From: Anaerolineales bacterium | GTDB lineage: Bacteria > Chloroflexota > Anaerolineae > Anaerolineales > UBA4823 | Direction: 5' to 3' | Assembly: GCA_025057645.1 (NCBI GenBank) | Contig: JANXBJ010000001.1 | Span: 616,357 to 680,356 of the forward strand | DNA: 64,000 nt | Part shown: piece by piece, positions 4,685 through 52,544 of the stretch | How positions within the stretch are numbered: the stretch's first letter is position 1 | How the letters are laid out: each line of letters opens with the position of its first letter | Position numbers and translations under genes: made by a program | Notes under the pieces: model-generated | Seen by the model: only the letters and a program-made list of their open reading frames with translations | Databases searched by the model: none | Told to the model about the DNA's origin: nothing

Positions 4685-4713
4685 TTGACACCACGCTCAA
4701 CAATGGCTATAAT
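4685..4713 (+). promoter_or_regulatory. Consensus sigma-70-type promoter for tRNA-Gly
   Basis: TTGACA at 4685-4690, a 17-base spacer and TATAAT at 4708-4713 form a perfect consensus promoter. The predicted transcription start, near 4720, is about 8 bases before the tRNA. This is the clearest promoter in the window and shows that the host uses standard -35/-10 elements. Confidence 0.85.
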
Positions 4714-4865: not shown

Positions 4866-5255
4866 ATGGACACCAAGGAGTCACCCCTTATTCTTTACGT
4901 TGAAGACAATTTAGATAATCGCACCCTTGTGAGGAGAATCCTTGAGGCTGAAGGCTTTTCAGTGATCGAAGCTGCCTCGGGAAAAGAGATGTTTGAAAAG
5001 CTCGAAACTGTCACCCCCGATCTGATTCTCATGGACATCAACCTGCCCGAAATCGACGGATATACCCTCACGACTACTCTCAAATCCCAACTCAAACCCG
5101 AAATCCCGATCGTCGCCTTGACCGCCAACGTGATGAAAGGCGATCGAGAGAAAACCCTTGCGGCAGGGTGTGACGGTTACATTCAAAAACCGATTGACGT
5201 TGATGCGCTACCTCAACAGGTGCGATCCTTCTTAGGCTCTAAAGCAAAGGGATGA
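4866..5255 (+). CDS. Stand-alone CheY-like response regulator receiver
   Basis: A 129-residue single-domain receiver with no output domain. The acidic pair is in LYVEDN, the phosphoacceptor is D57 in LILMDINLPEIDGY, the switch threonine is in VALTAN and the lysine in IQKPIDVDAL, so the phosphorylation site is complete. It probably works as a phosphate shuttle or by protein contact. The ATG of the next receiver overlaps its stop (ATGA at 5252-5255), which implies translational coupling. It heads a seven-gene signalling cluster whose only histidine kinase is encoded at 9688-12444; that this kinase is its partner is inference. Confidence 0.92.
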   Translation: MDTKESPLILYVEDNLDNRTLVRRILEAEGFSVIEAASGKEMFEKLETVTPDLILMDINLPEIDGYTLTTTLKSQLKPEIPIVALTANVMKGDREKTLAAGCDGYIQKPIDVDALPQQVRSFLGSKAKG

Positions 5256-5692
5256 ACATGGACGGAGTTTCCCGACAAAGAGGAAACCACAGCCTCGGAT
5301 CGCAGGATATCACCGTACTGGTAGTCGAAGACAACGTTGCTAACTTTGTTTTGATTGCCCGCCTGTTGGGTTATCTCGGCATCCATTGTGAGTGGAAAAC
5401 CTCCGGTTACGAGGTGGTCGAGTATGCTGATCTGCTTCCGAAATTGGATCTAATCCTGATGGACATCCGCTTGCCCTATGAAGATGGGTACGAAGCACTA
5501 AAGAAAATCCGTTCTTCTCCAAAATTAGCTTCTATTCCGGTGATCGCCATCACTGCTGAGGCCTCCCTAGAGCAGATGCAAAAAGCCCATGCTGCGGGCT
5601 TTGATGGATTTATTGGGAAACCGATCGACCCCGATCGCTTCCCCGAGCAAATCAAGGAAATTCTGAACGGACAGCCGGTTTGGGAACTCTAG
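5252..5692 (+). CDS. Stand-alone response regulator receiver (second copy)
   Basis: A 146-residue receiver with a short polar N-terminal extension (about 1-18). The acidic site is LVVEDN, the phosphoacceptor D71 in LILMDIRLPYEDGY, the threonine in IAITAEAS and the lysine in FIGKPIDPDRF. It is related to the preceding receiver but clearly diverged from it. The start overlaps the upstream stop by four bases (ATGA), so the two are translated in a fixed ratio. It has no DNA-binding or enzymatic output domain. Confidence 0.92.
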   Translation: MNMDGVSRQRGNHSLGSQDITVLVVEDNVANFVLIARLLGYLGIHCEWKTSGYEVVEYADLLPKLDLILMDIRLPYEDGYEALKKIRSSPKLASIPVIAITAEASLEQMQKAHAAGFDGFIGKPIDPDRFPEQIKEILNGQPVWEL

Positions 5693-5720: not shown

Positions 5721-6434
5721 ATGACATTGCCAAACCTCTTATCTGACACTCCCCTTCCAGATGAGGATAAGACCGGTCTTCAGGACACTGCTCAGGACAG
5801 TCGCCCAGAAGAGCAAGCCAGCTTTATTAGAGATGCGCTTGTGCTTGTCGATAGCTTCTCTCGCATGATAACGGGCATACCTGATCTACGTACATACATA
5901 ACCATCTTCCATGATAAAGAATCCTCGATTTTTCTCCTAAAAGACCAGAAACTAACCACTACCACCTCCACCCCAATCATCAATCATCTGATCGCAGAGA
6001 TGATGAAAAGCGGCTCTGCCACCTTGTTCACGGATACCTCGCTAAGAACCCCGGATTTCCTGGGAAAGCCGAGTGGCTCTTCTTGGCTGGTCATTCCCCT
6101 AAAAAGCGAACACCAAATTATCGGGGCGATCGTCTTTCAAGGACCAAAGAACGGACCGTATTTCGCAGAAAGTGATAAGCAAATCTTAAACTCGCTAATT
6201 GAACCTATCTCCGGCCTCTTTCAAGGCGTTTTACTTTTGCAGTCAACACGCCAGGTCTTGGAGCTTCAGTCCCAAAATGTTCGCGCAATATCTCGCGTTC
6301 AGGAAGACCTCACCAGACTGACGGACAAGCTCCTCGAAACGCTAGATGTAGATTTAGTGTTAGAGACCGGTGTAATAGAATTGCGCCAAATGTTCGATCT
6401 CGCTGAAGTGGAAATCCAGCTCCATGCAACATAA
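5721..6434 (+). CDS. GAF-domain protein without output domain
   Basis: A 237-residue soluble protein. Residues about 35-180 look like a GAF small-molecule-binding domain: a helix with DALVLVDSFSRMI, then SSWLVIPLKSEHQIIGAIVFQ, the typical central strands. A helical C-terminal stretch (about 180-237) ends in LETGVIELRQMFDLAEVEIQL. No kinase, cyclase or DNA-binding domain is visible. It lies 28 bases after the second receiver and 43 before the Cache-HAMP-GAF sensor, inside the same transcription unit. The ligand is unknown. Confidence 0.8.
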   Translation: MTLPNLLSDTPLPDEDKTGLQDTAQDSRPEEQASFIRDALVLVDSFSRMITGIPDLRTYITIFHDKESSIFLLKDQKLTTTTSTPIINHLIAEMMKSGSATLFTDTSLRTPDFLGKPSGSSWLVIPLKSEHQIIGAIVFQGPKNGPYFAESDKQILNSLIEPISGLFQGVLLLQSTRQVLELQSQNVRAISRVQEDLTRLTDKLLETLDVDLVLETGVIELRQMFDLAEVEIQLHAT

Positions 6435-6477: not shown

Positions 6478-8934
6478 ATGAAACCACCCCGACTCTCACG
6501 AAGACTTTCTATTCACACCCTCTTACTTGGAATTCTAACGTTCTTGTCGTTCCTTGCCATCCTAGGAAATGTGGCAAGCTCCATTTATACTACCAATAAC
6601 ATCGGGGACGTAACTCAAGAGCAAAGCGCCGAGATTATCAAAGAAAGGTTGTTGTCCTCATTGGTCTCGATTAACCGAGGCATCGCTCTCGATGTTGGAA
6701 GATCTTTGGAGAAAACGGCCGAAATGGCTACCATTCTTGCAGAATATACCCTGGACGCTTGGACAAGTCCGGATCGGGTCTCTATGGGGTGGGCTGAGGA
6801 GGAGACTCTCACTAGAGGCGATCAGGGTCAATGGACAAACGGGAAGGAGGACACCTCCAGCCTATTTATTCCCAATTTTGTAAGCATAACTCCACAAGTC
6901 CTCGCAGAGGTCGAAAAAAGCCGACGTCTCGACCTAGTGTTCGAGTCGATCCAGAAAAGCAATCCCGAGATTGCTGCGATTTATTTCACTTCGAAAAATG
7001 AGGTCACCCGCTATTACCCAAACATTGGGCTTGGCGGAGTGATTCCTCCGAACTTCAAAGCCACACAACGACCTTGGTATCTGGCTGCTATTCAAACATC
7101 AATCCCTCGAAGCGAGGTAGTTTGGACGACAAGCCTCGACACTACCGGACTAGGGATGGTCGGCACGGTCTCGAAGGCCATCTATGATCGCGGGAGTCTG
7201 ATCGGGGTTGTCGGGATAGACGTTTTAGTTGAAGACATCCTTGCCAATGTTGAAAAACCTCTAGAGCTTCGGGGTGGATATAACTTTCTCATTGACTATC
7301 AAGGCTATGCACTCGTGCTGCCTGAGCAGGCCTACTTAGATATCCTTGAACGTCAGCCGGCCGAAGGGGAGTTCCTAACCAACCTGAGAGACGCTAGAAA
7401 CGAGTTTCTAACAACGATAAGCGAAATGAGAAAAGGCAATAGTGGCGTTCAAGAAATTGATCTTGGCGAAAGAACCCTATTAGTAGCCTATCAACCCGTC
7501 GCCTATGCCGATTGGAGTCTTGCGAGTGTTGTAGACGCAGCGTATTATCTTGCCCCCATCACAGGTCTTCAACGGGAGTTACGCTCAACTACCCAACGTT
7601 TTATTGTAACGCAAGTTCTACCCTTGTCTGCTGCCGTATTCACGCTGATTGTATTTATCGGCTTGGTTTTATCGAATCTAATTACAGTCCCTGTGCGCCA
7701 GCTCGCCCTTGCTGCTGAGAAACTCGGTCGCAACGAATGGAATGTCGATATCCCCGAAGACGCCCCGGGCGAGATCGGCTTGTTCGCCCGCACCTTTCGC
7801 AACATGGCAGACCACCTGAAAGACCTGATTAGTAACCTTGAACAAAAGGTAGCCGAGCGAACAGAAGCCTTACACCGTAGGGCTACTCAACTTCAAGCCT
7901 CGATCGAAGTCGGACGGGCCGTCGCTTCGGAGCGTAACCTCGAGAAATTGCTTTCCATGGTAACCCATCTAATCAGCGAACGATTTGGGTTTTACCATGT
8001 AGGGGTGTTTCTGATCGATGCCAAAGGGGAATATGCTTGGCTAAAGGCCGCCAACAGCGAGGGAGGCCAGCGGATGTTGCAGCGCCAACATCGCCTGAAG
8101 GTCAACGAGCAAGGTATTGTCGGCTATGTGACTGGCACAGGAAAAGCCCGCATCGCTCTGGACGTTGGCGAAGATGCTGTTTTTTTCAATAACCCAGACC
8201 TGCCGTTCACTCGCTCCGAAATGGCTCTTCCCCTGATCGCTCAGGGGCGAATCTTGGGCGCCCTAGACATCCAGAGCGAAAAAGGCGGTGCTTTCACCGA
8301 AGAAGATATCGAGGTGCTCAGCGGCATGGCTAACCTGGTCGCAATAGCTATTCAAAACGCAGAGCTGTTCGCTGAAACGCAAGCAGCCCTTGAGGCGACA
8401 CGGCGCGCTTACCAAGAAATGAGCCTAAAAGGCTGGATTGACCTTATCAGGCGCACTCCCTATCCCACCTACCTTAGCACACACTTAAAGAAAGTCACCC
8501 GTCTGCCACGATCCTCCTCTCCGCTCGTGGAACGGGTTCTCCAAACCAACGATATTCAAAGAGGAGACGAGCACGAGATCGCACTTCCAATCTTTGTCAA
8601 GGGCAATCGCATAGGCGTGCTCCGCCTGCGTCGGCATGTTCACCAGCCGCCGTTTAGCGATACAGATATCGATCTCTTTCAAGATATCGCTCTCCGCATC
8701 GGGACAGCTCTAGAAGCTGCGCGACTTTATCAAGAATCACAGAAACGGGCCTTACGCGAAAAACTTGTCGGCGAAATTACCTCCAAAATCCGGTCCTCCA
8801 ATGAGCCGACCGAAATTCTTCGGATCGCTGTTCAAGAGCTGCAAAAGGCCTTGCAAGCCACCAAAGCCCAAGTCACCTTCTTCCCGCCCAAATCTGCGAA
8901 AGGTGAAAACGGTCATCATGAGGGAGTGGAATGA
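6478..8934 (+). CDS. Membrane sensor: Cache - HAMP - GAF - GAF, no kinase domain
   Basis: An 818-residue receptor. TM1 (about 10-35) is followed by a large extracytoplasmic Cache-type sensor (about 40-375; the PWYLAAI motif is typical of dCache domains), then TM2 (about 382-405), a HAMP linker (about 405-460, NLITVPVRQLALAAEKLG), and a coiled coil ending QKVAERTEALHRRA. A GAF domain (about 480-635) and a second GAF-like region (about 660-760) follow. The chain ends with a helix and no histidine kinase, methyl-accepting or cyclase output, so it must signal through a partner. The stop overlaps the ParA-like start (ATGA, 8931-8934), which makes that ATPase and the kinase after it the obvious candidates. 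Confidence 0.9.
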   Translation: MKPPRLSRRLSIHTLLLGILTFLSFLAILGNVASSIYTTNNIGDVTQEQSAEIIKERLLSSLVSINRGIALDVGRSLEKTAEMATILAEYTLDAWTSPDRVSMGWAEEETLTRGDQGQWTNGKEDTSSLFIPNFVSITPQVLAEVEKSRRLDLVFESIQKSNPEIAAIYFTSKNEVTRYYPNIGLGGVIPPNFKATQRPWYLAAIQTSIPRSEVVWTTSLDTTGLGMVGTVSKAIYDRGSLIGVVGIDVLVEDILANVEKPLELRGGYNFLIDYQGYALVLPEQAYLDILERQPAEGEFLTNLRDARNEFLTTISEMRKGNSGVQEIDLGERTLLVAYQPVAYADWSLASVVDAAYYLAPITGLQRELRSTTQRFIVTQVLPLSAAVFTLIVFIGLVLSNLITVPVRQLALAAEKLGRNEWNVDIPEDAPGEIGLFARTFRNMADHLKDLISNLEQKVAERTEALHRRATQLQASIEVGRAVASERNLEKLLSMVTHLISERFGFYHVGVFLIDAKGEYAWLKAANSEGGQRMLQRQHRLKVNEQGIVGYVTGTGKARIALDVGEDAVFFNNPDLPFTRSEMALPLIAQGRILGALDIQSEKGGAFTEEDIEVLSGMANLVAIAIQNAELFAETQAALEATRRAYQEMSLKGWIDLIRRTPYPTYLSTHLKKVTRLPRSSSPLVERVLQTNDIQRGDEHEIALPIFVKGNRIGVLRLRRHVHQPPFSDTDIDLFQDIALRIGTALEAARLYQESQKRALREKLVGEITSKIRSSNEPTEILRIAVQELQKALQATKAQVTFFPPKSAKGENGHHEGVE

Positions 8935-9719
8935 GCTATATTCTTGCCATTGCTAATCAAAAAGGCGGTGTAGCAAAAACCACTACCGCTGCTGGACTCA
9001 GCGGCGCTTTGGTTCAGGAAGGATACGAGGTTCTGGCCATCGATTTAGACCCGCAGGCTAACCTGACCATTGCTCTAGGCCTCAACCCTCGTGAAGTGCG
9101 TCATTCAGCCGCCGATCTCTTTATCCATACCGAGAAGCTCGCCTCCCTAACCCAGGCAACTTCGATCCCGGGCCTAGATATCGTGCCGGCAAACCGGGAG
9201 ATGGAACTCTCCGAGCGCTTTATCCCTCTTAGGAAAAACCATGAGCTCATTTTACGACAGCAATTGCTGGCTTCCGAAATTACATCGGCCTATGATTTTG
9301 TCGTCTTAGACTGTCCCGCTTTTCTCGGAGCGATTACCACCAACGCTATGGTAGCAGCAAACCTCTTGATCATCCCGACTCAGCCTGAGTATTTCTCGCT
9401 CCACGCCTTGAGAAACACGCTGACTCAGGTAAGAACTGTTCGTCAAACTTTCAACCCTTCTTTAGCCTATCGCATCTTGATTACCCTGCGCGACCTGCGC
9501 AATCGCGTGCATCGCACCATGAGCGAGCATTTGCTCAACACATTCCCGGATGGGGTGTTGAAGACCTCAATTGATTTAGATACCAAACTGCGAGAAAGTG
9601 CTGCGACCGGCATGCCAGTCAACTTTTGCTATCCAAAGAGCAGAGGAGCGGAACAATATCGGGCGCTTGCAACGGAGATTTTAGAGTATGTGCGCGAAAA
9701 GAACTCTATCCCGGCTTGA
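8931..9719 (+). CDS. ParA/Soj-family ATPase in a signalling cluster
   Basis: A 262-residue deviant-Walker ATPase. Walker A is [10 protein letters not shown] (residues about 10-19), with alanine where glycine is more usual. The switch is IDLDPQAN, and [17 protein letters not shown] takes the Walker B position. Family members dimerise with ATP and position chromosomes, plasmids or protein arrays. No ParB gene or parS-like site is seen nearby. Its start overlaps the stop of the membrane sensor and its end overlaps the kinase gene by 32 bases, which points to placing or gating the signalling complex rather than partitioning DNA. That role is inference from context. Confidence 0.88.
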
Positions 9720-12444
9720 GAATATCCTCTTGGAGCTTCAGCAAGAAGTAAAGCAGACGGCCCCGGAGAGCGGCCCAGACTTGCTTTTCGGGCTCGGGGC
9801 AACAGCCCCTGCATTGGATACGGAAGAGACTCAAGAGACCCTACCCCTTTATGAGTCCAAACCCATCCCCCTTACCTCTTCTTTCCCTGGTCTGGAGTCT
9901 CAAACAATCGTTGTCCAAGCCAACGGCGACATTCGGTTCCTGCCCTCGCTCGAAGAGACCTCTTCCATCCCCGAAGTTTTCCTAACTGAACTTGGCAAGC
10001 GAGCTTATCATCAAAACCAACTCCTCTACCAAGACGCCCAAGACCATCAACCCGCTGTTCTCTCCCTCGCCAAGTCGGTCGACGAACGCGAATTTCTGTT
10101 TGAATTCATCAAAGAGGACCCTCAGCGCAAATGGGACCCTGACGAAATTCTGCTCCTCGAACAAGTCGCCGAACAGCTTCGGTTAGCACTCGAAGATGCC
10201 AACTTGTTCCAGCAGACCAAGCAAGCGCTCAGCAAAACTGAGGAGCGCGCAAGAGAACTGAGCGTCCTCAACGACCTCAGTCGCGCTTTGACATCTGCCA
10301 CAAATCTCGACCAGATTTTTCACGCCGTTTACGAACACGTCTCGCAGCTCATGGAAGCCTATAACTTCTATATCGCAATTTATGACGAGGCCAGAGACCG
10401 AATACGATTTCCATTTGTCGTGCTCGATGGCGCTCCCCTCACCGAACAGCACCCCGAAGCCGGCTTCTGGATGGGCGAAATTCCCCCTATAGAAGGCCTG
10501 ACAGGGTATGTCCTCCGCACCAAACAGCCCCTTCTGCTCAGCGGGGATATCGAGAGCCAACTCAAGGAGAGAGGCATTAGTTTTATTCAGGTCGGAGATG
10601 TCTCGGCCAAGTCCTGGCTGGGCACACCGATCTTCCTCGGCGACAAGGTCATCGGAGTGATTGCCGTTCAACACGAGTACCTCCCGAATCTATACGATCA
10701 GCACCACGCTGACCTACTCATGGCCATCGGCAACGGAATGGCCATTGCGATCCAAAACGTTCGCCTGCTCGAGACCTTGCGCCGGCGGGCTGAGGAGCTT
10801 CAGATCGCTTCCGAAATCGCCCGCGATGTTTCCGGCACCTTGGCTCTCGACTTATTGCTTAAGAACGTGGTCAACCTGGTCAGGGATCGCTTCGGCTTCT
10901 ATCACTCCTCCGTCTTCCTCCTCGATGAAGAAGGCCAATATGCTGTGGTTCGCGAGTCCACCGGCTTAGCTGGTGAGGAAATGAAACGCAGGGGACACAA
11001 ACTAGCCGTGGGGTCGCGCTCAATTATCGGTTATGTTACCCAACATGGTGAGCCCCTGATTGTCAATGATGTATCCCAGAGCGACATCCACCGCTTCAAT
11101 CCCCTGCTCCCCGAAACGAAATCCGAACTGGGCATCCCGCTCAAAATCGGTGACAAGGTGATCGGCGCCCTTGACGTTCAATCCACCCAGGTAAACGCCT
11201 TTTCGCCAGATAATGTCTCGATTCTCCAGCTCCTCGCAGATCAAATCGCCATTGCCATCAGCAACGCTCAGGCCTACGAACTTTCCCAGAAGGCTGTAGA
11301 AGAAATGCGCAAGGCCGATCAACTGAAAAGCCAGTTCCTGGCTAACATGAGCCACGAGCTGCGCACCCCGTTGAACTCGATTATCGGCTTCTCGCGCGTG
11401 ATTCTAAAAGGGATCGACGGGCCAATCACCGACTTACAACGCCAAGACCTAAATGCTATCTATCATTCTGGTCAACACTTGTTGAGCCTAATTAATGACA
11501 TCCTCGACCTGTCGAAGATCGAAGCGGGGAAGATGGAGTTATTCTTCGAAGACGAAGTCAACCTTGTCGAGGTTATCCAAGGAGTGTTGCCTACCGTCCG
11601 AGGCTTGATCAAAGATAAGCCGATCGAGTTGGTGGTCGAACTGCCGCCTGAGCTACCCCCCGTGCGGGCCGACCCGACCAAAATCCGCCAAGTTTTGCTC
11701 AACCTTTTCTCGAACGCGGCCAAGTTCACCGAGAAAGGGTTTATCAAGGTCGAAGCCCAAGTAGAGCAAGTCAATTCTCACAAGGAGGTCCTAATCAAAG
11801 TAACCGACACCGGAATCGGCATTGCCCTAGAAGATCAAGGAAAACTGTTCGAGCCTTTCTCCCAAGTGGATCCTTCACCTACTCGAAAGACCGGAGGCAG
11901 CGGCCTTGGGCTTTCGATCTCTCGTCACTTGGTCGAAATGCACGGTGGGAGGATCGGTGTTCAAAGCGAATTGGGCAAGGGTTCTATGTTTTACTTTACC
12001 ATTCCCGTGCCCTCTAGGGAGCTACCCGAAGCCGATGCCCAACCCGATCTCTCTCCAGAAGCTTCAACCCAAACGACAGTCCTAGCGATCGACAGCGAAG
12101 AATTCGTGCTAAATCTATATCAACGTTATCTTGAAGATCACAACATCAAGGTGTTCAAATGTTCAGCACCTGAGGAAGCGATTCAACTAACCCAAACTCT
12201 CTCCCCTTCGGTGATTGTGATCGATCCGGCCCTCCAACTTAACTCCGATCCTCCTAAAGATGGATGGCATCTCATCCAGGAGCTAAAATCTAACCCCGAA
12301 ACTGAAAAAATCCCGATCGTGGTGTGTTCATTAGTCGAAGACCCGGAGCGGGCCGAACGATTCGGAGTGGCTCGGTATCTGCTCAAGCCTCTCATAGAAG
12401 AAGACCTAATTACTGCGATCAAGAAAGTTCTGCACAAGGCATAA
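9688..12444 (+). CDS. Soluble multi-GAF hybrid histidine kinase with C-terminal receiver
   Basis: A 918-residue cytoplasmic kinase with no membrane segment. In order: a GAF-like N-terminal region (about 60-190), GAF (about 205-365), GAF (about 375-540), HisKA with phosphoacceptor H556 in [12 protein letters not shown], HATPase with N box NLFSNAAKF and G boxes DTGIGI and [15 protein letters not shown] (about 650-780), then a receiver (about 790-915) with D846 in VIVIDPALQ and lysine in LLKPL. The ATG at 9688 overlaps the ParA-like gene by 32 bases. It is the only kinase of the cluster and could serve its own receiver, the two stand-alone receivers and the receiver fused to the downstream PLP enzyme. 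Confidence 0.92.
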
Positions 12445-12451
12445 GGCCGTA

Positions 12452-14140
12452 ATGTCCGGGGTAAGCTACGCTGTCCACTGCATAGATTGCGGCCACACTG
12501 AACCATTTCGTCTGGTTCAAACCACTTGCTCACAGTGCGGGAGCAACTGGCGTGAAGTGCACTACGACCTGGAGAAAGTCAAGCCGATCTTTGAGCATCA
12601 GCTCTCAGAACGTCCCTTCGATCTCTGGCGGTATCGCGAACTATTACCTATTGCAGAATATATCCCTTATCTATCGATGGGCGAAGGGGGAACACCTCTA
12701 ATCCATGCGAACAACCTCGGAATGATGCTGGGGTGTCCTAACTTGTTTATCAAGGACGAGCGCCAAGGGCCAACCAACTCCTTCAAAGACCGGCAGGCAG
12801 CCATTGCCATTGCGGCGATGAAAGAAGCCGAGATTACCGAAGCAGTTCTAGCTTCGACGGGTAACGTTGCCATTGCTTACTCAGCGTATGCCGCGCGCGC
12901 TGGGATCAAGCTCTGGGCCTTCTTGACCAGCCTCGTGCCGCTCGAAAAAATGCGCGAGGTGGCGATCTACGGGACAAAGGTCATTAAGGTTACCGGCACC
13001 TACGACCAAGCGAAGCGTCTAGCAGCCGAGTTTGCTCGCCAGCGTAACCTGCACCTTGAACGGGGAGCCTGCTCCATCCCTTCAGTTGAATCGATGAAAA
13101 CGCTGGCCTTTGAGATCGCTGAGCAGTTGACCTATTATCTGCGAACAAATTCAGATGCCCTCGCTAACCTGCCCACCAAGTGGAAGGCTCCGGACTGGTA
13201 CGTCCAATCTGTCAGTGGCGGAATAGGCCCTCTGGGCGTCCTCAAAGGTTTCACGGAACTCTACCAGATGGGGCTTATCGATCGCATTCCCTCTATCGCC
13301 TGCATCCAAGCCGAGGGTTGTGCTCCGATGGTCCATGCCTGGAAAGCTAACAAAGCGGTAGCCGACCCTGTTCTCAACCCCAAGACTCACATCACCACTC
13401 TCTCCACGGGTGACCCAGGTCGCACCTACACTTTGCTTCGCGAGCGAATGCTTCGACTTGGCGGAGGAGCCTTCGAAAGCGTGAGCGACGAGGAAACTTT
13501 TCGCACCATTCATATTCTCGCTAAGCTAGAAGGCCTCTCCACCGAATCGGCTGCAGCAGTAGCCTTTGCTGGAACAATCAAACTCTTGCGCCAAGGGATC
13601 ATCAAACCAAACGAGATCATTGTCGTCAATTGTACCGGTCATACGATGCCGGTCGAAACCCTAGTACTCGGGGATGGTTGGGCAACAGACATTTCTATTT
13701 CTCGTCTCGAAATGGAGGCCAAACCCCAAGAAGGACTGTATGGCGCTCTGAGCAACCTGACGCCGGAGAAGGTGCGTAAAATCGTGATCATTGACGACAT
13801 CGAAGACGCTCGCCGCCTGCTACGACGCATCCTCCAATCCCAAGGAGACTTCTTGATCCGCGAAGCGGCGAGTGGGATGGAAGGCATCCAAATGATTCAA
13901 GAGGATCCGCCGGATGTCATCATCCTCGACTTGATGATGCCGGAGATGGATGGGTTCGCTGTACTGAGCCATCTACAACAATTTCCCGATTTGGCTTCCA
14001 TCCCGGTCATTGTTGTCACCGCCAAAGAGCTGACAAAAGAGGAGCAAGCTCTCCTGCGCGGAAAAGTCAAAGCTCTGATGCACAAAGGCAAATTTATGAG
14101 CGATGATTTGGCTGATGAGATTCTAGAAGCCATTCATTAG
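12452..14140 (+). CDS. Threonine-synthase-like PLP enzyme fused to a C-terminal response regulator receiver
   Basis: A 562-residue fusion. An N-terminal zinc-ribbon-like Cys4 (C10, C13, C26, C29) and a fold-type II PLP domain (about 65-415, PLP lysine K112 in TNSFKDRQA, phosphate loop STGNVA, SVSGGIGP) match threonine synthase-like lyases. A short linker (about 425-445) leads to a complete receiver (about 446-562): IIDDIED acidic site, phosphoacceptor D493 in VIILDLMMPEMDGF, threonine in IVVTAKE and lysine in LMHKGK. It starts 7 bases after the kinase stop. Phosphorylation may control the enzyme, or the enzyme body may act as a sensor or scaffold; neither is shown. A second, ordinary threonine-synthase-like gene lies at 52522-53667. 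Confidence 0.9.
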   Translation: MSGVSYAVHCIDCGHTEPFRLVQTTCSQCGSNWREVHYDLEKVKPIFEHQLSERPFDLWRYRELLPIAEYIPYLSMGEGGTPLIHANNLGMMLGCPNLFIKDERQGPTNSFKDRQAAIAIAAMKEAEITEAVLASTGNVAIAYSAYAARAGIKLWAFLTSLVPLEKMREVAIYGTKVIKVTGTYDQAKRLAAEFARQRNLHLERGACSIPSVESMKTLAFEIAEQLTYYLRTNSDALANLPTKWKAPDWYVQSVSGGIGPLGVLKGFTELYQMGLIDRIPSIACIQAEGCAPMVHAWKANKAVADPVLNPKTHITTLSTGDPGRTYTLLRERMLRLGGGAFESVSDEETFRTIHILAKLEGLSTESAAAVAFAGTIKLLRQGIIKPNEIIVVNCTGHTMPVETLVLGDGWATDISISRLEMEAKPQEGLYGALSNLTPEKVRKIVIIDDIEDARRLLRRILQSQGDFLIREAASGMEGIQMIQEDPPDVIILDLMMPEMDGFAVLSHLQQFPDLASIPVIVVTAKELTKEEQALLRGKVKALMHKGKFMSDDLADEILEAIH

Positions 14141-14152
14141 GCCACCTTTCTT

Positions 14153-15154
14153 ATGCTCGAAAAAACGGTCGTCCGCCCGGCGGCTCGTTCCCCCGTCCTG
14201 AATCTTACCGGTATTCTCTCGGCGGTCTTTTCCGCTACCCTGCTGGGTTTCACCCCAATTCTAGGAAAACTTGCCATCCTATATGGAGTGGCCCCTTTCC
14301 TAGTAGTAACTTTGCGGACCGTTTTAGCCGCATTTTTTATGGGGCTGACGCTGCTCGCAACAAATCGAGCCAGTTTTTTTATCTATCCCGCTGGTCTTCT
14401 AGGGTGTGCACTCGCAGGCATCTTAAATGGAGTGGGTTCGCTTTTCTACTATCAAGCTTTAGCCCTGATTAACGCCAACGTGGGGCAGTTGATCTTTCTG
14501 ACCTACCCGGTTTTCGTCACCCTCTGGCTCATCTTAGATCGTTACACGCCATCGGCTGTTTCCTTTATTCGGGTAGGCCTGATTGTTTTCGGGATCGGAT
14601 TCCTCATTATCGGCGCTCACACTCCGCTTAATCTCAGAGGAGTGTTCTTTATGCTGGTCGCAGCTGCAGGATATGGATTGCACTTGCTCGTCAACCAGCG
14701 CGTGCTGCTCGAAATGCCTGCCCCAACCGTAACCTTCTACACTCTGCTGTTCATGTCTCTCGTGGTCCTCCCCTTTGGCGTCTTCAGCGGCCAAGTTTTT
14801 CATACCGCTAGCTCCCTTTCTTTGGTTCTCCTCTCCTTTGTGCCCGTTCTTGCCCTAGCGGGGGTCACTTTTCTGTCTAGGCTCGCCCTCTTTCTGGGCG
14901 TCAAGCGGATTGGGGGTCTGCAGACCGCCCTTTTAGGGGTAACCGAGCTGTTGGTGACGCTCACCTTCGCAAAGCTATGGTTGCAGGAAACCCTCAACCT
15001 TTTTCAGTGGATCGGGGTGGCGTTGATTGTGCTCAGCATCGTGCTGCTCAGTCAGGAAAAGCCGCTCCAGCGGAAACCGGGCAAAAGCACTTGGTTGCAC
15101 TGGCTCCAGCCTCACACCTTCCCGAACCGCCAAAACCCTCCGTTATTAGACTAA
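14153..15154 (+). CDS. DMT-superfamily (EamA) transporter
   Basis: A 333-residue integral membrane protein with about ten hydrophobic helices arranged as two EamA repeats (about 18-150 and 160-305). Motifs include the first-repeat LGFTPILGKLAI and a second-repeat helix ending LLGVTELLVTLTFAKLWLQETL, a typical DMT end. Members export amino acids, nucleobases or other metabolites; the substrate cannot be told. No Shine-Dalgarno is clear. It starts 12 bases after the PLP-receiver gene and may be the last gene of that unit, which would fit an amino-acid exporter, but the link is positional only. Confidence 0.88.
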   Translation: MLEKTVVRPAARSPVLNLTGILSAVFSATLLGFTPILGKLAILYGVAPFLVVTLRTVLAAFFMGLTLLATNRASFFIYPAGLLGCALAGILNGVGSLFYYQALALINANVGQLIFLTYPVFVTLWLILDRYTPSAVSFIRVGLIVFGIGFLIIGAHTPLNLRGVFFMLVAAAGYGLHLLVNQRVLLEMPAPTVTFYTLLFMSLVVLPFGVFSGQVFHTASSLSLVLLSFVPVLALAGVTFLSRLALFLGVKRIGGLQTALLGVTELLVTLTFAKLWLQETLNLFQWIGVALIVLSIVLLSQEKPLQRKPGKSTWLHWLQPHTFPNRQNPPLLD

Positions 15155-16257: not shown

Positions 16258-17340
16258 ATGAATATCGGCATCCCTAAAGAGCGACGTCCGTTTGAATTTC
16301 GCGTTGGGTTAACCCCCGCAGGTGTCCAAATGTTGGTCGACCATGGGCACGTCTGCTATGTCGAACACGAAGCGGGGTTGGCTGCGGGTTTCACCGATCA
16401 GGAATACGAAAGCGCCGGAGCTAGGATCGCCTACTCCCCGCAAGAGGTCTTTGGCCGAGCGGATCTGCTGCTGAAAGTAGCTAGGCCCACCCTCGAGGAA
16501 ATCGGTTGGATGCGCCCCGGCACTGCAGTGGCCGGCCTGCTCCACCTGACCTCCGCAAGGCAGGAAAAGATCGAAGCACTACTGAGGTCAAAAATCACGG
16601 CCATTGCGTTTGAGCAAGTCTCTCTCCCCGACGGCACCATGCCGATTCGGCGTCCTCTCGCAGCCATCGGAGGAGTGATGGTGCCTCAAATTGCCGCTCG
16701 TCTCTTACAGATCGACTTCGGTGGCAAGGGAATGTTGCTGGGCGGGATCGTGGGCGTTCCGCCGGCTGAAGTGGTTATCGTGGGCGCAGGGGTAACCGGC
16801 ACCGCAGCCACTAAGGGGTTCGTCGGCATGGGAGCGCATGTCACTGTTTTGGACACCAACATCAATGCACTGCAAAGACTATACGATCGCTTTCCGAATA
16901 TCCTCACTCTCATAAGCAACCCAGTAAACCTCAAACGCGTGCTATCCTATGCGGATGTGCTGGTTGGTGCCGTTCTAATCCCCCATCAGCGTGCCCCCAT
17001 TGTCATTACTCGAGAGATGGTCAGACTGATGAAACCGCGGTCGATCATCATCGACATGAGCATTGATGAAGGAGGCTGCGTTGAGACTTCAAGGCCAACC
17101 ACTCACGACCGGCCTACATATATCGAAGAGGGCGTAATCCATTACTGCGTACCTAACATCCCAAGCGTCATTGCCCGTACCTCTACCTATGCTTACGTCA
17201 ACGCAGCCTTTCCTTACATTCAAGAGTTAGCTAACAAGGGAATCGAGCGCGCTATTCAGGAGGACCCATCGCTGGGAATCGCAGTTGCAACCCATCAAGG
17301 GCGTGCGGTTAACCTTAGCCGACTCACTCCTGCCGAATAG
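16258..17340 (+). CDS. ald: Alanine dehydrogenase
   Basis: Interconverts L-alanine and pyruvate plus ammonia with NAD(H). Conserved features: substrate arginine R15 in PFEFRVGLTPAG, the lysine in DLLLKVARP, the histidine in LLHLTSARQ, the Rossmann loop VIVGAGVTGTAATKG (about residues 173-187), and the catalytic aspartate loop IIDMSIDEGGCVETSRPTTH followed by HYCVPNIPS. Length, 360 residues, is typical. It lies 23 bases after argF and 10 before the CoA-transferase gene, so the three probably form an amino-acid catabolism unit. Related transhydrogenase alpha subunits lack this alanine-site set. Confidence 0.93.
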   Translation: MNIGIPKERRPFEFRVGLTPAGVQMLVDHGHVCYVEHEAGLAAGFTDQEYESAGARIAYSPQEVFGRADLLLKVARPTLEEIGWMRPGTAVAGLLHLTSARQEKIEALLRSKITAIAFEQVSLPDGTMPIRRPLAAIGGVMVPQIAARLLQIDFGGKGMLLGGIVGVPPAEVVIVGAGVTGTAATKGFVGMGAHVTVLDTNINALQRLYDRFPNILTLISNPVNLKRVLSYADVLVGAVLIPHQRAPIVITREMVRLMKPRSIIIDMSIDEGGCVETSRPTTHDRPTYIEEGVIHYCVPNIPSVIARTSTYAYVNAAFPYIQELANKGIERAIQEDPSLGIAVATHQGRAVNLSRLTPAE

Positions 17341-17350
17341 GAAGGCCTCC

Positions 17351-18646
17351 ATGGACTGGATCAAGCAATATCAATCAAGGGTCGTTACAGCAGAAGAGGC
17401 TGTACGCCAAATCAAATCCAATCAGCGTGTCTTCCTCACGGGCAACTGTTCAGTGCCCCAAAAGCTACTGGCCGCACTGGTTGAGTACGCTCCCCATCTC
17501 GAAAACGTCGAGATTTGCCATGCCCTCACTGTTGGGCCTGCAGACTACGTTAAGCCAGAACTGCAAGGACATCTCCGCGTCAATACGATGTTCATCAGTA
17601 GCAATGTTCGCAAAGCCGTCCATGAAGGACGGGCAGACTTCACCCCGGTTTTGCTATCCGAATTCCCTCTTCTGTTCAAGCGCAAAATCTTGCCTGTGGA
17701 TGTTGCCCTAGTTCATGTTTCCCCACCCGATGAACACGGGTTCTGCAGCTTCGGGATTGAAGTGGGATTGACTAAGAGCGTCGCCGAGTCGGCTTCTATA
17801 ATTATCGCTGAGGTCAATCAGCAAATGCCACGCACTTTAGGGGACTCGTTCATTCACGTCAGTCGTTTACACTACATCGTGCCGACCGACTATGAGCTCC
17901 CGGAGCTGCCGATGGCCGATGAAGGCAACAGGGAAATCTACGAAAAAATTGCCTCCTACGTAGCCGAATTGATTCCTGACGGTGCCACAATGCAAATGGG
18001 TATCGGAGCGATCCCAGATGCAGTGCTAAAACACTTGTTCAACAAGAAAGACCTCGGTATTCACACCGAAATGTTCTCGGATGGCGTAATCGATCTGGTG
18101 GAAGCAGGGGTTCTGACCAACAGCCGTAAGACCCTGCATCCCGGGAAAATCATCGCCGGCTTTATTCTAGGCACTCGAAGGCTATATAGATGGGTCGATG
18201 ACAATCCGCTCATCGAGCTGCATCCCACCGAATATGTAAATGACCCCTTCATTATTGCGCAAAACGAACGGATGGTCGCCATCAACTCCGCAATTGAAGT
18301 GGACTTGACCGGTCAGGTATGTGCGGATAGCATTGGCCACCGGCTCTATAGCGGGGTGGGCGGGCAGCTGGACTTCATCTACGGCGCCTCCCGCTCCAAA
18401 GGAGGTGTGCCAATTATTGCTCTTCCTAGCACGGCCAAAGATTTTAGCCGCATCGTTGCCACGCTAAAACCCGGAGCCGGTGTTGTGACCACCCGCAATC
18501 ATGTCCACTACGTGATCACCGAGTATGGAATCGCCGACCTTTACGGGAAAACCATCCGCCAACGGGCACAAGCCCTAATCAACATCGCCCACCCTAAATT
18601 TCGAGAGGAGCTAACCCGCCAGGCTAAAGAGCTAAACTATATCTAG
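17351..18646 (+). CDS. Acetyl-CoA hydrolase/transferase family CoA-transferase (4-hydroxybutyrate CoA-transferase type)
   Basis: A family I CoA-transferase that moves CoA between acyl groups through a glutamyl-CoA intermediate. The catalytic glutamate is E240 in IHTEMFSDGVIDL; GIGAIPDAVL and YGIADLYGKTIRQRA are further family motifs. The 431-residue length matches 4-hydroxybutyrate and butyryl-CoA:acetate transferases. ATG 17351 is chosen because an upstream in-frame start at 17285 would lie inside the alanine dehydrogenase gene. Context suggests fermentation of amino-acid-derived acids; the acyl substrate is not certain. Confidence 0.88.
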   Translation: MDWIKQYQSRVVTAEEAVRQIKSNQRVFLTGNCSVPQKLLAALVEYAPHLENVEICHALTVGPADYVKPELQGHLRVNTMFISSNVRKAVHEGRADFTPVLLSEFPLLFKRKILPVDVALVHVSPPDEHGFCSFGIEVGLTKSVAESASIIIAEVNQQMPRTLGDSFIHVSRLHYIVPTDYELPELPMADEGNREIYEKIASYVAELIPDGATMQMGIGAIPDAVLKHLFNKKDLGIHTEMFSDGVIDLVEAGVLTNSRKTLHPGKIIAGFILGTRRLYRWVDDNPLIELHPTEYVNDPFIIAQNERMVAINSAIEVDLTGQVCADSIGHRLYSGVGGQLDFIYGASRSKGGVPIIALPSTAKDFSRIVATLKPGAGVVTTRNHVHYVITEYGIADLYGKTIRQRAQALINIAHPKFREELTRQAKELNYI

Positions 18647-51875: not shown

Positions 51876-52544
51876 TCACTGGTCCAGATTCAAAGTCTTG
51901 AGTGCTGACCGAGCAGCATTCTTGGAAGCAATTCGCTTGTTCGGACCCTCTCCCTTACCGTAACAGCGGTTGCCGATATAGACTTCAACTTCGAAAATTT
52001 TTGCATGCTCTGGCCCGCGGACCGAGACTGTGCGGTAAACCGGTGGTCCATATCCATTCGATTGCGACCATTCCTGTAAAATGCTTTTGGGTTCCTTTTC
52101 CTTGTTTTGAGCGATGATATCCTCAGCAGCCTTTTGAACAATCGGCCTTAAAAACTGTTGTACAGTGTCCATTCCGCCATCAAGATAGATCGCCCCTACC
52201 ACAGCTTCGAATGTTGCGCAGAGCAAATTGGCCCGTTCTCGTCCTCCCGACTCTTCCTCACCCTTCCCTAAACGCATCATCTGGCCCAAGCCCAATTGCT
52301 TGGCGAATTCCGCTAATTGTTCCGTTTTGACCAACGCTGAGCGAAGTTTAGTTAAGTCCCCCTCACTCATTTCGGGAAAATGGTGATAAATCCACTCGGC
52401 GACAAAAAAGTCCAAAACCGCATCACCCAAGAATTCCAAGCGCTCGTTATCCTCAATAACCTCATCGTGTTCGTTCAAGTAAGAACGATGGGTCAATGCC
52501 CTTTGGAGTAAGTATTCGTCCTTAATGGGAAGATTGTGCTTCAT
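51876..52544 (-). CDS. rnc: Ribonuclease III
   Basis: 222 residues. The catalytic signature NERLEFLGDAVLDFF is at about 33-47, the second metal glutamate in ATFEAVVGAIYLDGG, and a C-terminal double-stranded RNA-binding domain (about 152-220) ends NKRIASKNAARSALKTL. It processes rRNA and cleaves double-stranded RNA. The start lies 23 bases inside the end of the upstream threonine-synthase-like gene, and the stop touches the smc start. The rnc-smc pairing is common in bacteria. Confidence 0.96.
   Translation of the reverse strand: MKHNLPIKDEYLLQRALTHRSYLNEHDEVIEDNERLEFLGDAVLDFFVAEWIYHHFPEMSEGDLTKLRSALVKTEQLAEFAKQLGLGQMMRLGKGEEESGGRERANLLCATFEAVVGAIYLDGGMDTVQQFLRPIVQKAAEDIIAQNKEKEPKSILQEWSQSNGYGPPVYRTVSVRGPEHAKIFEVEVYIGNRCYGKGEGPNKRIASKNAARSALKTLNLDQ

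Follow-up and report, generated by a model that had tools for sequence, protein, structure and literature searches.

Can a two-component signal act directly on an enzyme of amino-acid metabolism? The question is raised by a gene (12452..14140, + strand) in the 64,000-nucleotide stretch of Anaerolineales DNA analysed here, which is referred to throughout as the window. The gene encodes a 562 aa protein that joins a threonine-synthase-like enzyme (PALP) to a response-regulator receiver (REC). Its frame runs from an ATG at 12452 to a stop at 14138-14140, and the ORF listing and the translation contain no break, which bears out the first-pass annotation of this DNA in reading the locus as a single uninterrupted 562-codon fusion. 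The domain search that was proposed there finds both domains in one chain, with PALP at residues 75-396 (Pfam, E 7.5e-57) and Response_reg at residues 444-544 (Pfam, E 5.3e-20). In combination with an alignment of 130 homologues and an AlphaFold model, the protein can be divided into a zinc ribbon-like segment (aa 1-58), a fold-type II PLP enzyme body of the threonine-synthase superfamily (aa 59-405), a linker (aa 409-439) and a complete receiver (aa 440-562). The ribbon carries four cysteines, C10, C13, C26 and C29, all of which are invariant across the aligned homologues. The AlphaFold model, for which an 83-sequence alignment served as input, has a mean pLDDT of 88 and comprises two well-folded bodies and a disordered linker with pLDDT below 50.

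Conservation of both domains

The active residues are intact on both sides of the fusion. The PLP Schiff-base lysine, K112 (12785..12787, + strand), lies in the motif SFKDRQ, is present in 130/130 homologues and aligns with K61 of the Thermus threonine synthase (ThrC). T136-G137-N138, K166, K216-T217 and G396-H397 of the enzyme body are likewise invariant, as is the glycine-rich loop SGGxGPxG at residues 255-262 (S255-G256-G257 and G259-P260 in 130/130), and the C-terminal position 395 is S or T in all 130 sequences. The Schiff-base lysine, the asparagine of the STGN loop, the glycine-rich phosphate loop, the C-terminal S/T and the fold matches given below are those of a fold-type II PLP enzyme. 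The phospho-acceptor of the receiver, D493 (13928..13930, + strand), is found in every homologue and is accompanied within the Response_reg domain by the acidic pair (D or E at position 448, which is D448 in the window protein, and D449, both in 130/130), by T or S at position 523 (129/130 with one gap; T523 in the window protein) and by K545 (128/130 or 98%, with two gaps). K112, D493, the acidic pair, the Thr and the Lys had all been noted in the single sequence and are confirmed here as invariant or nearly so.

A degenerate enzyme body, which had also been entertained at first, was rejected because the catalytic core is invariant in 130 homologues; moreover, the enzyme is more conserved than the receiver, the mean pairwise identity being 61% in the enzyme and 49% in the receiver, and as low as 34% in the linker. 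The distance matrices of enzyme and receiver correlate with r 0.83, a value matched by 0/500 permutations, and the two domains have been inherited together vertically. The correlation reflects shared descent and alone is not proof of functional coupling. Within the variable linker G428, L429 and L433 are conserved. They belong to a short motif just ahead of the receiver (aa 427-433; 13730-13750 of the window) that takes the form E/D-G-L-L-x-A-L in the family.

Distribution and phylogeny

A protein search at E<=1e-60 yields a match in 102/298 genomes of the class Anaerolineae and in 71/190 of those of high quality. The class matches are nearly all full-length fusions with 45-63% identity, many genomes contain two copies, and one of the 102 (G044) encodes a REC-less enzyme. 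In a sample of the phylum 46/400 genomes match, four of them with REC-less proteins of 37-38% identity, and the fusion is also encoded by seven sampled genomes outside the Anaerolineae. Named records of the fusion family belong to Anaerolineales, Anaerolineae and Thermoflexales. A pattern-based scan of contigs from other genomes returned at least ten long matches, all from Chloroflexota, and the other loci among the matches listed are mainly receiver matches. Far from being absent from all relatives, the fusion is thus present in about 100 genomes of the class, and because the same fusion is read from so many other genomes a sequencing or assembly artefact was rejected. The observation also lies far outside what chance would give.

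In a tree of the enzyme domain (81 rows) the fused proteins make up one side of a branch with a support of 100. No intact REC-less member falls inside the fused clade, the nearest REC-less proteins being only 37-38% identical, and fusion matches without a receiver are situated at contig edges or in frame-broken genes; one such broken gene without an attached receiver is found at L258. One clade has added a second receiver to the same protein and its members group together in the tree. A recent one-off fusion was rejected as the fused forms constitute one old clade. The joining of PALP and receiver is genuine, and a large group of Chloroflexota (Anaerolineae) has conserved it, keeping receiver and enzyme together in one chain.

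Gene neighbourhood of the fusion

The fusion is gene 7 in a run of eight genes of the same direction (+ strand) that are separated by small gaps or overlaps. The run begins with two stand-alone receivers, REC1 (4866..5255, 129 aa) and REC2 (5252..5692, 146 aa), followed by a 237 aa GAF-like protein with a weak GAF match (5721..6434) and an 818 aa kinase-less membrane sensor with the Pfam architecture dCache-HAMP-GAF-GAF (6478..8934). Next are a 262 aa ParA-type ATPase (8931..9719; Pfam AAA_31, 8e-45), which overlaps both neighbours, and a 918 aa hybrid histidine kinase with the Pfam architecture GAF-GAF-HisKA-HATPase_c-REC (9688..12444), the gene of which ends 7 bp upstream of the fusion gene. 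The last gene, 12 bp downstream of the fusion, encodes a 333 aa transporter of the EamA/DMT family (14153..15154; Pfam EamA, 8e-24). Ahead of the run lies TTGACA-17-TATAAT (4685..4713, + strand), a consensus match only, which at 12/12 is the sole perfect sigma-70 consensus in the scanned region. The hybrid kinase is presumed to be the partner of the fusion. In its own receiver a serine replaces the usual second acidic residue, so that the relay could be indirect.

Neighbouring genes were counted in the 98 homologous loci whose flanks exceed 3 kb on both sides. A kinase or receiver gene adjoins the fusion in 91/98, typically across a gap of about 0-40 bp, and is missing from the remaining seven. 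The usual adjacent gene is a catalytically intact kinase directly upstream, and the upstream kinases contain the H-box motif in 96/102 and the DxGxG motif in 100/102 cases. In other lineages the gene that directly follows the fusion encodes a REC-HisKA-HATPase protein or a stand-alone receiver. An EamA gene is located within 5 kb downstream in 37/98 loci.

The same gene order recurs in 12 genomes of the same order (L278-L289), in which three to eight tandem kinase-less sensors are followed by ParA, the kinase and the fusion. In the tandem sensors that were scanned, Pfam recognises dCache, MASE11, HAMP and GAF domains; it finds neither a kinase domain nor CheA or MCP signalling domains. Homologues of REC1 and REC2 head the run in relatives where the sequence extends that far, those of REC1 (61-64% identical) in L282 and L286 and those of REC2 (76-81% identical) in L279, L282 and L286. 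ParA takes the same place in the run of relatives and is present in only part of the fusion family. Overall, this arrangement uncovers a large conserved operon in which many kinase-less sensors would feed one kinase, with the fusion enzyme as the likely output.

Proposed function of the fusion protein

It is proposed, with a probability of roughly 0.55, that the fusion protein is a response regulator with enzymatic output in which the receiver gates a PLP enzyme that acts on a substrate other than O-phosphohomoserine; phosphotransfer, the direction in which control acts, the chemistry and any export are all predicted features of this scheme. In its favour are the breadth of the fusion and its single clade, the invariant cores of both domains, the stronger constraint on the enzyme and the correlated distances, the linkage to intact kinases, the second receiver gained in one clade and the precedent of receivers on metabolic enzymes (PMC5847659). 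The co-encoded sensors would pick up signals and convey them to the hybrid kinase, which, judging from the genetic linkage, would phosphorylate the receiver on D493. The phosphorylated receiver would then alter the activity of the PLP enzyme to which it is joined, with a sign that is likewise putative, probably by means of domain closure or an oligomer interface. Fold-type II enzymes of the threonine-synthase superfamily open and close around their substrate, as is established for threonine synthase, and a docking receiver could gate this movement. The AlphaFold model, in which a disordered linker separates the enzyme from the C-terminal receiver, lends no support to a docked arrangement of the two. 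The reaction would be a beta- or gamma-replacement or an elimination on an amino-acid substrate, and in lineages with an adjacent EamA exporter the product may pass to it. It appears that in these bacteria an amino-acid-type enzyme is switched by phosphorylation directly and not via gene expression.

The seven loci without an adjacent kinase or receiver gene speak against this scheme, as does the EamA link, which is seen in only 37/98 loci. The first-pass annotation had suggested that a two-component signal acts on threonine or related metabolism. The PLP enzyme as the target is upheld by the catalytic residues kept on both sides and by the kinase that is usually its neighbour, but threonine as the product is unlikely because the substrate-phosphate pocket is replaced, as set out below. 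If true, the gating of the enzyme by its receiver would amount to direct post-translational two-component control of a threonine-synthase-superfamily PLP enzyme on the scale of a phylum, with transcription bypassed.

More speculatively, and with considerable doubt, the whole run may be seen as a multi-receptor array that is chemotaxis-like in its layout and not in its parts. Membrane sensors that lack a kinase domain, as many as eight of them (dCache, MASE11, HAMP, GAF), would converge together with ParA on one HisKA-type hybrid kinase and from there on the phospho-gated PLP enzyme as the main output. This enzyme would make a small molecule resembling an amino acid, which EamA would export in many lineages and which might serve as an intercellular signal.

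As the main alternative, the PLP domain might be the sensor, such that an amino acid bound as an aldimine tunes the phosphorylation of the receiver or its choice of partner. PLP enzyme bodies have a precedent as sensory domains in MocR/GabR, where an aminotransferase body binds the effector (PMC5320631, PMC6917764), the enzyme precedes the receiver in the fusion chain, downstream receivers or REC-kinases could read the state of the receiver, and the invariant lysine fits a sensor and an enzyme alike. Nevertheless, a chemical core that is invariant as a whole, glycine loop included, and a PALP domain under stronger conservation than the receiver suit catalysis better than ligand sensing, and the run already holds many dedicated sensor proteins. 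As the enzyme is more constrained than the receiver and dedicated sensors are at hand, the enzyme reading is preferred and a sensory PLP domain, though conceivable, is rather unlikely.

Relation to threonine synthase

An enzyme gated by its receiver could in principle be a true threonine synthase. Among solved structures, threonine synthases come closest in sequence (2zsj, E 1.6e-60), the top NCBIfam matches bear this name, and one of the two nearest folds is that of the Arabidopsis ThrC 2c2b (Z 45.6, 389 aligned, rmsd 2.3). The other, aligned over model residues 1-401, is that of CapA2, a cysteate synthase (9k3c; Z 42.9, 369 aligned, rmsd 2.3). The protein, however, falls under the curated cut-offs of TIGR00260 (152.5 vs 167.1 bits) and PRK08197 (241.5 vs 303 bits), as well as that of TIGR03844 for cysteate synthase (81.8 vs 324.9 bits).

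The active site points the same way. T88, S155, R160 and N188 of the Thermus ThrC, which contact the substrate phosphate in the 1V7C structure and whose letters agree with the aligned 1uim sequence, are replaced in 130/130 homologues, where V/A/K, G, A/S/G/T and a GG loop stand instead. K116 of the Thermus enzyme is retained as K166. The alignment to characterised threonine synthases that had been suggested at the outset therefore gives a divided answer, in that the PLP lysine has its counterpart in K61 but the four phosphate contacts are lost. To judge from these residues, the chemistry core is intact and the O-phosphohomoserine pocket is not.

A canonical ThrC with a GNAGN loop is encoded on contig C63 of the same genome (G000) and scores 307 bits. 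The gene at 52522, previously taken for a separate normal threonine synthase, reaches 102 bits against the ThrC cut-off of 167 and has to cede that role to the gene on C63. In the whole of G000 no match to the homoserine kinase model TIGR00191 exceeds its cut-off (best 26 bits), though the canonical ThrC is present, and an alternative kinase may serve in its place. Taken together, the fusion enzyme is probably not a threonine synthase, and a ThrC under two-component control is improbable. Annotations probably give such fusion proteins the name 'threonine synthase', against which the active-site evidence speaks.

It is also very unlikely that the receiver acts as a localisation device, a scaffold or a phosphate buffer within a large sensor complex that includes ParA, leaving the rate of the enzyme unaffected, for although the disordered linker of the AlphaFold model, the ParA and several sensor proteins of the run and the G428, L429, L433 motif, which could bind a partner, would fit this role, ParA occurs in only part of the family and the fused receiver in every intact member.

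Comparison with known systems

A phospho-gated PLP enzyme would take its place among the response regulators with enzymatic output domains, such as CheB and PleD. These share with the fusion a receiver that is joined to an enzyme, which it places, or in the fusion would place, under two-component control. Receivers are also fused to a KaiC-type NTPase, a BcsA-like glycosyltransferase, thioredoxin reductase and pyruvate phosphate dikinase, and archaeal receiver-enzyme fusions are described as usually limited to one family or genus (PMC5847659), whereas the phyletic spread of the Chloroflexota fusion is wider. A literature search of open-licence papers found no description of a fold-type II PLP enzyme joined to a receiver; receivers on metabolic enzymes are as such already known.

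ThrC (TIGR00260, PDB 1uim/1v7c, 2zsj, 2c2b) shares the fold, the PLP lysine, the STGN loop and the C-terminal S/T of the S/T-G motif at about 30% identity. Unlike ThrC, the fusion has its substrate-phosphate residues and GNAGN loop replaced, scores under the cut-offs and has a receiver attached. To the same superfamily belongs cysteate synthase (TIGR03844; CapA2 of Alistipes, PDB 9k3c), which was compared by profile score and fold and gives an 87-bit profile match; the fusion reaches 82 bits against a TIGR03844 cut-off of 325, and cysteate synthase has no receiver. MocR/GabR, too, are regulatory proteins that contain a PLP enzyme body; they combine a fold type I aminotransferase with a DNA-binding domain, whereas the fusion combines fold type II with a receiver and has no DNA-binding domain. 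The wHTH and aminotransferase-like domains that define MocR/GabR are not among its Pfam matches, which consist of PALP and Response_reg only.

Additional features of fusion loci

In one clade (L189, L191, L192, L198, L202 and L274) a second, REC-less threonine-synthase-like enzyme is encoded close downstream of the fusion; it is about 30% identical and contains SFKARG and YPTGGGTGL motifs. A frame of 1695 aa at L195 (8138-13225) has about 1000 aa without a Pfam match ahead of PALP-REC-REC, which may reflect a wrongly called start or a genuine extension. Genes for an alanine-dehydrogenase-like protein and a CoA-transferase lie near the fusion at 16258-18646 of the window, and they are found on the opposite strand in L127 (10862-13260) and L132, which belong to another family of the class.
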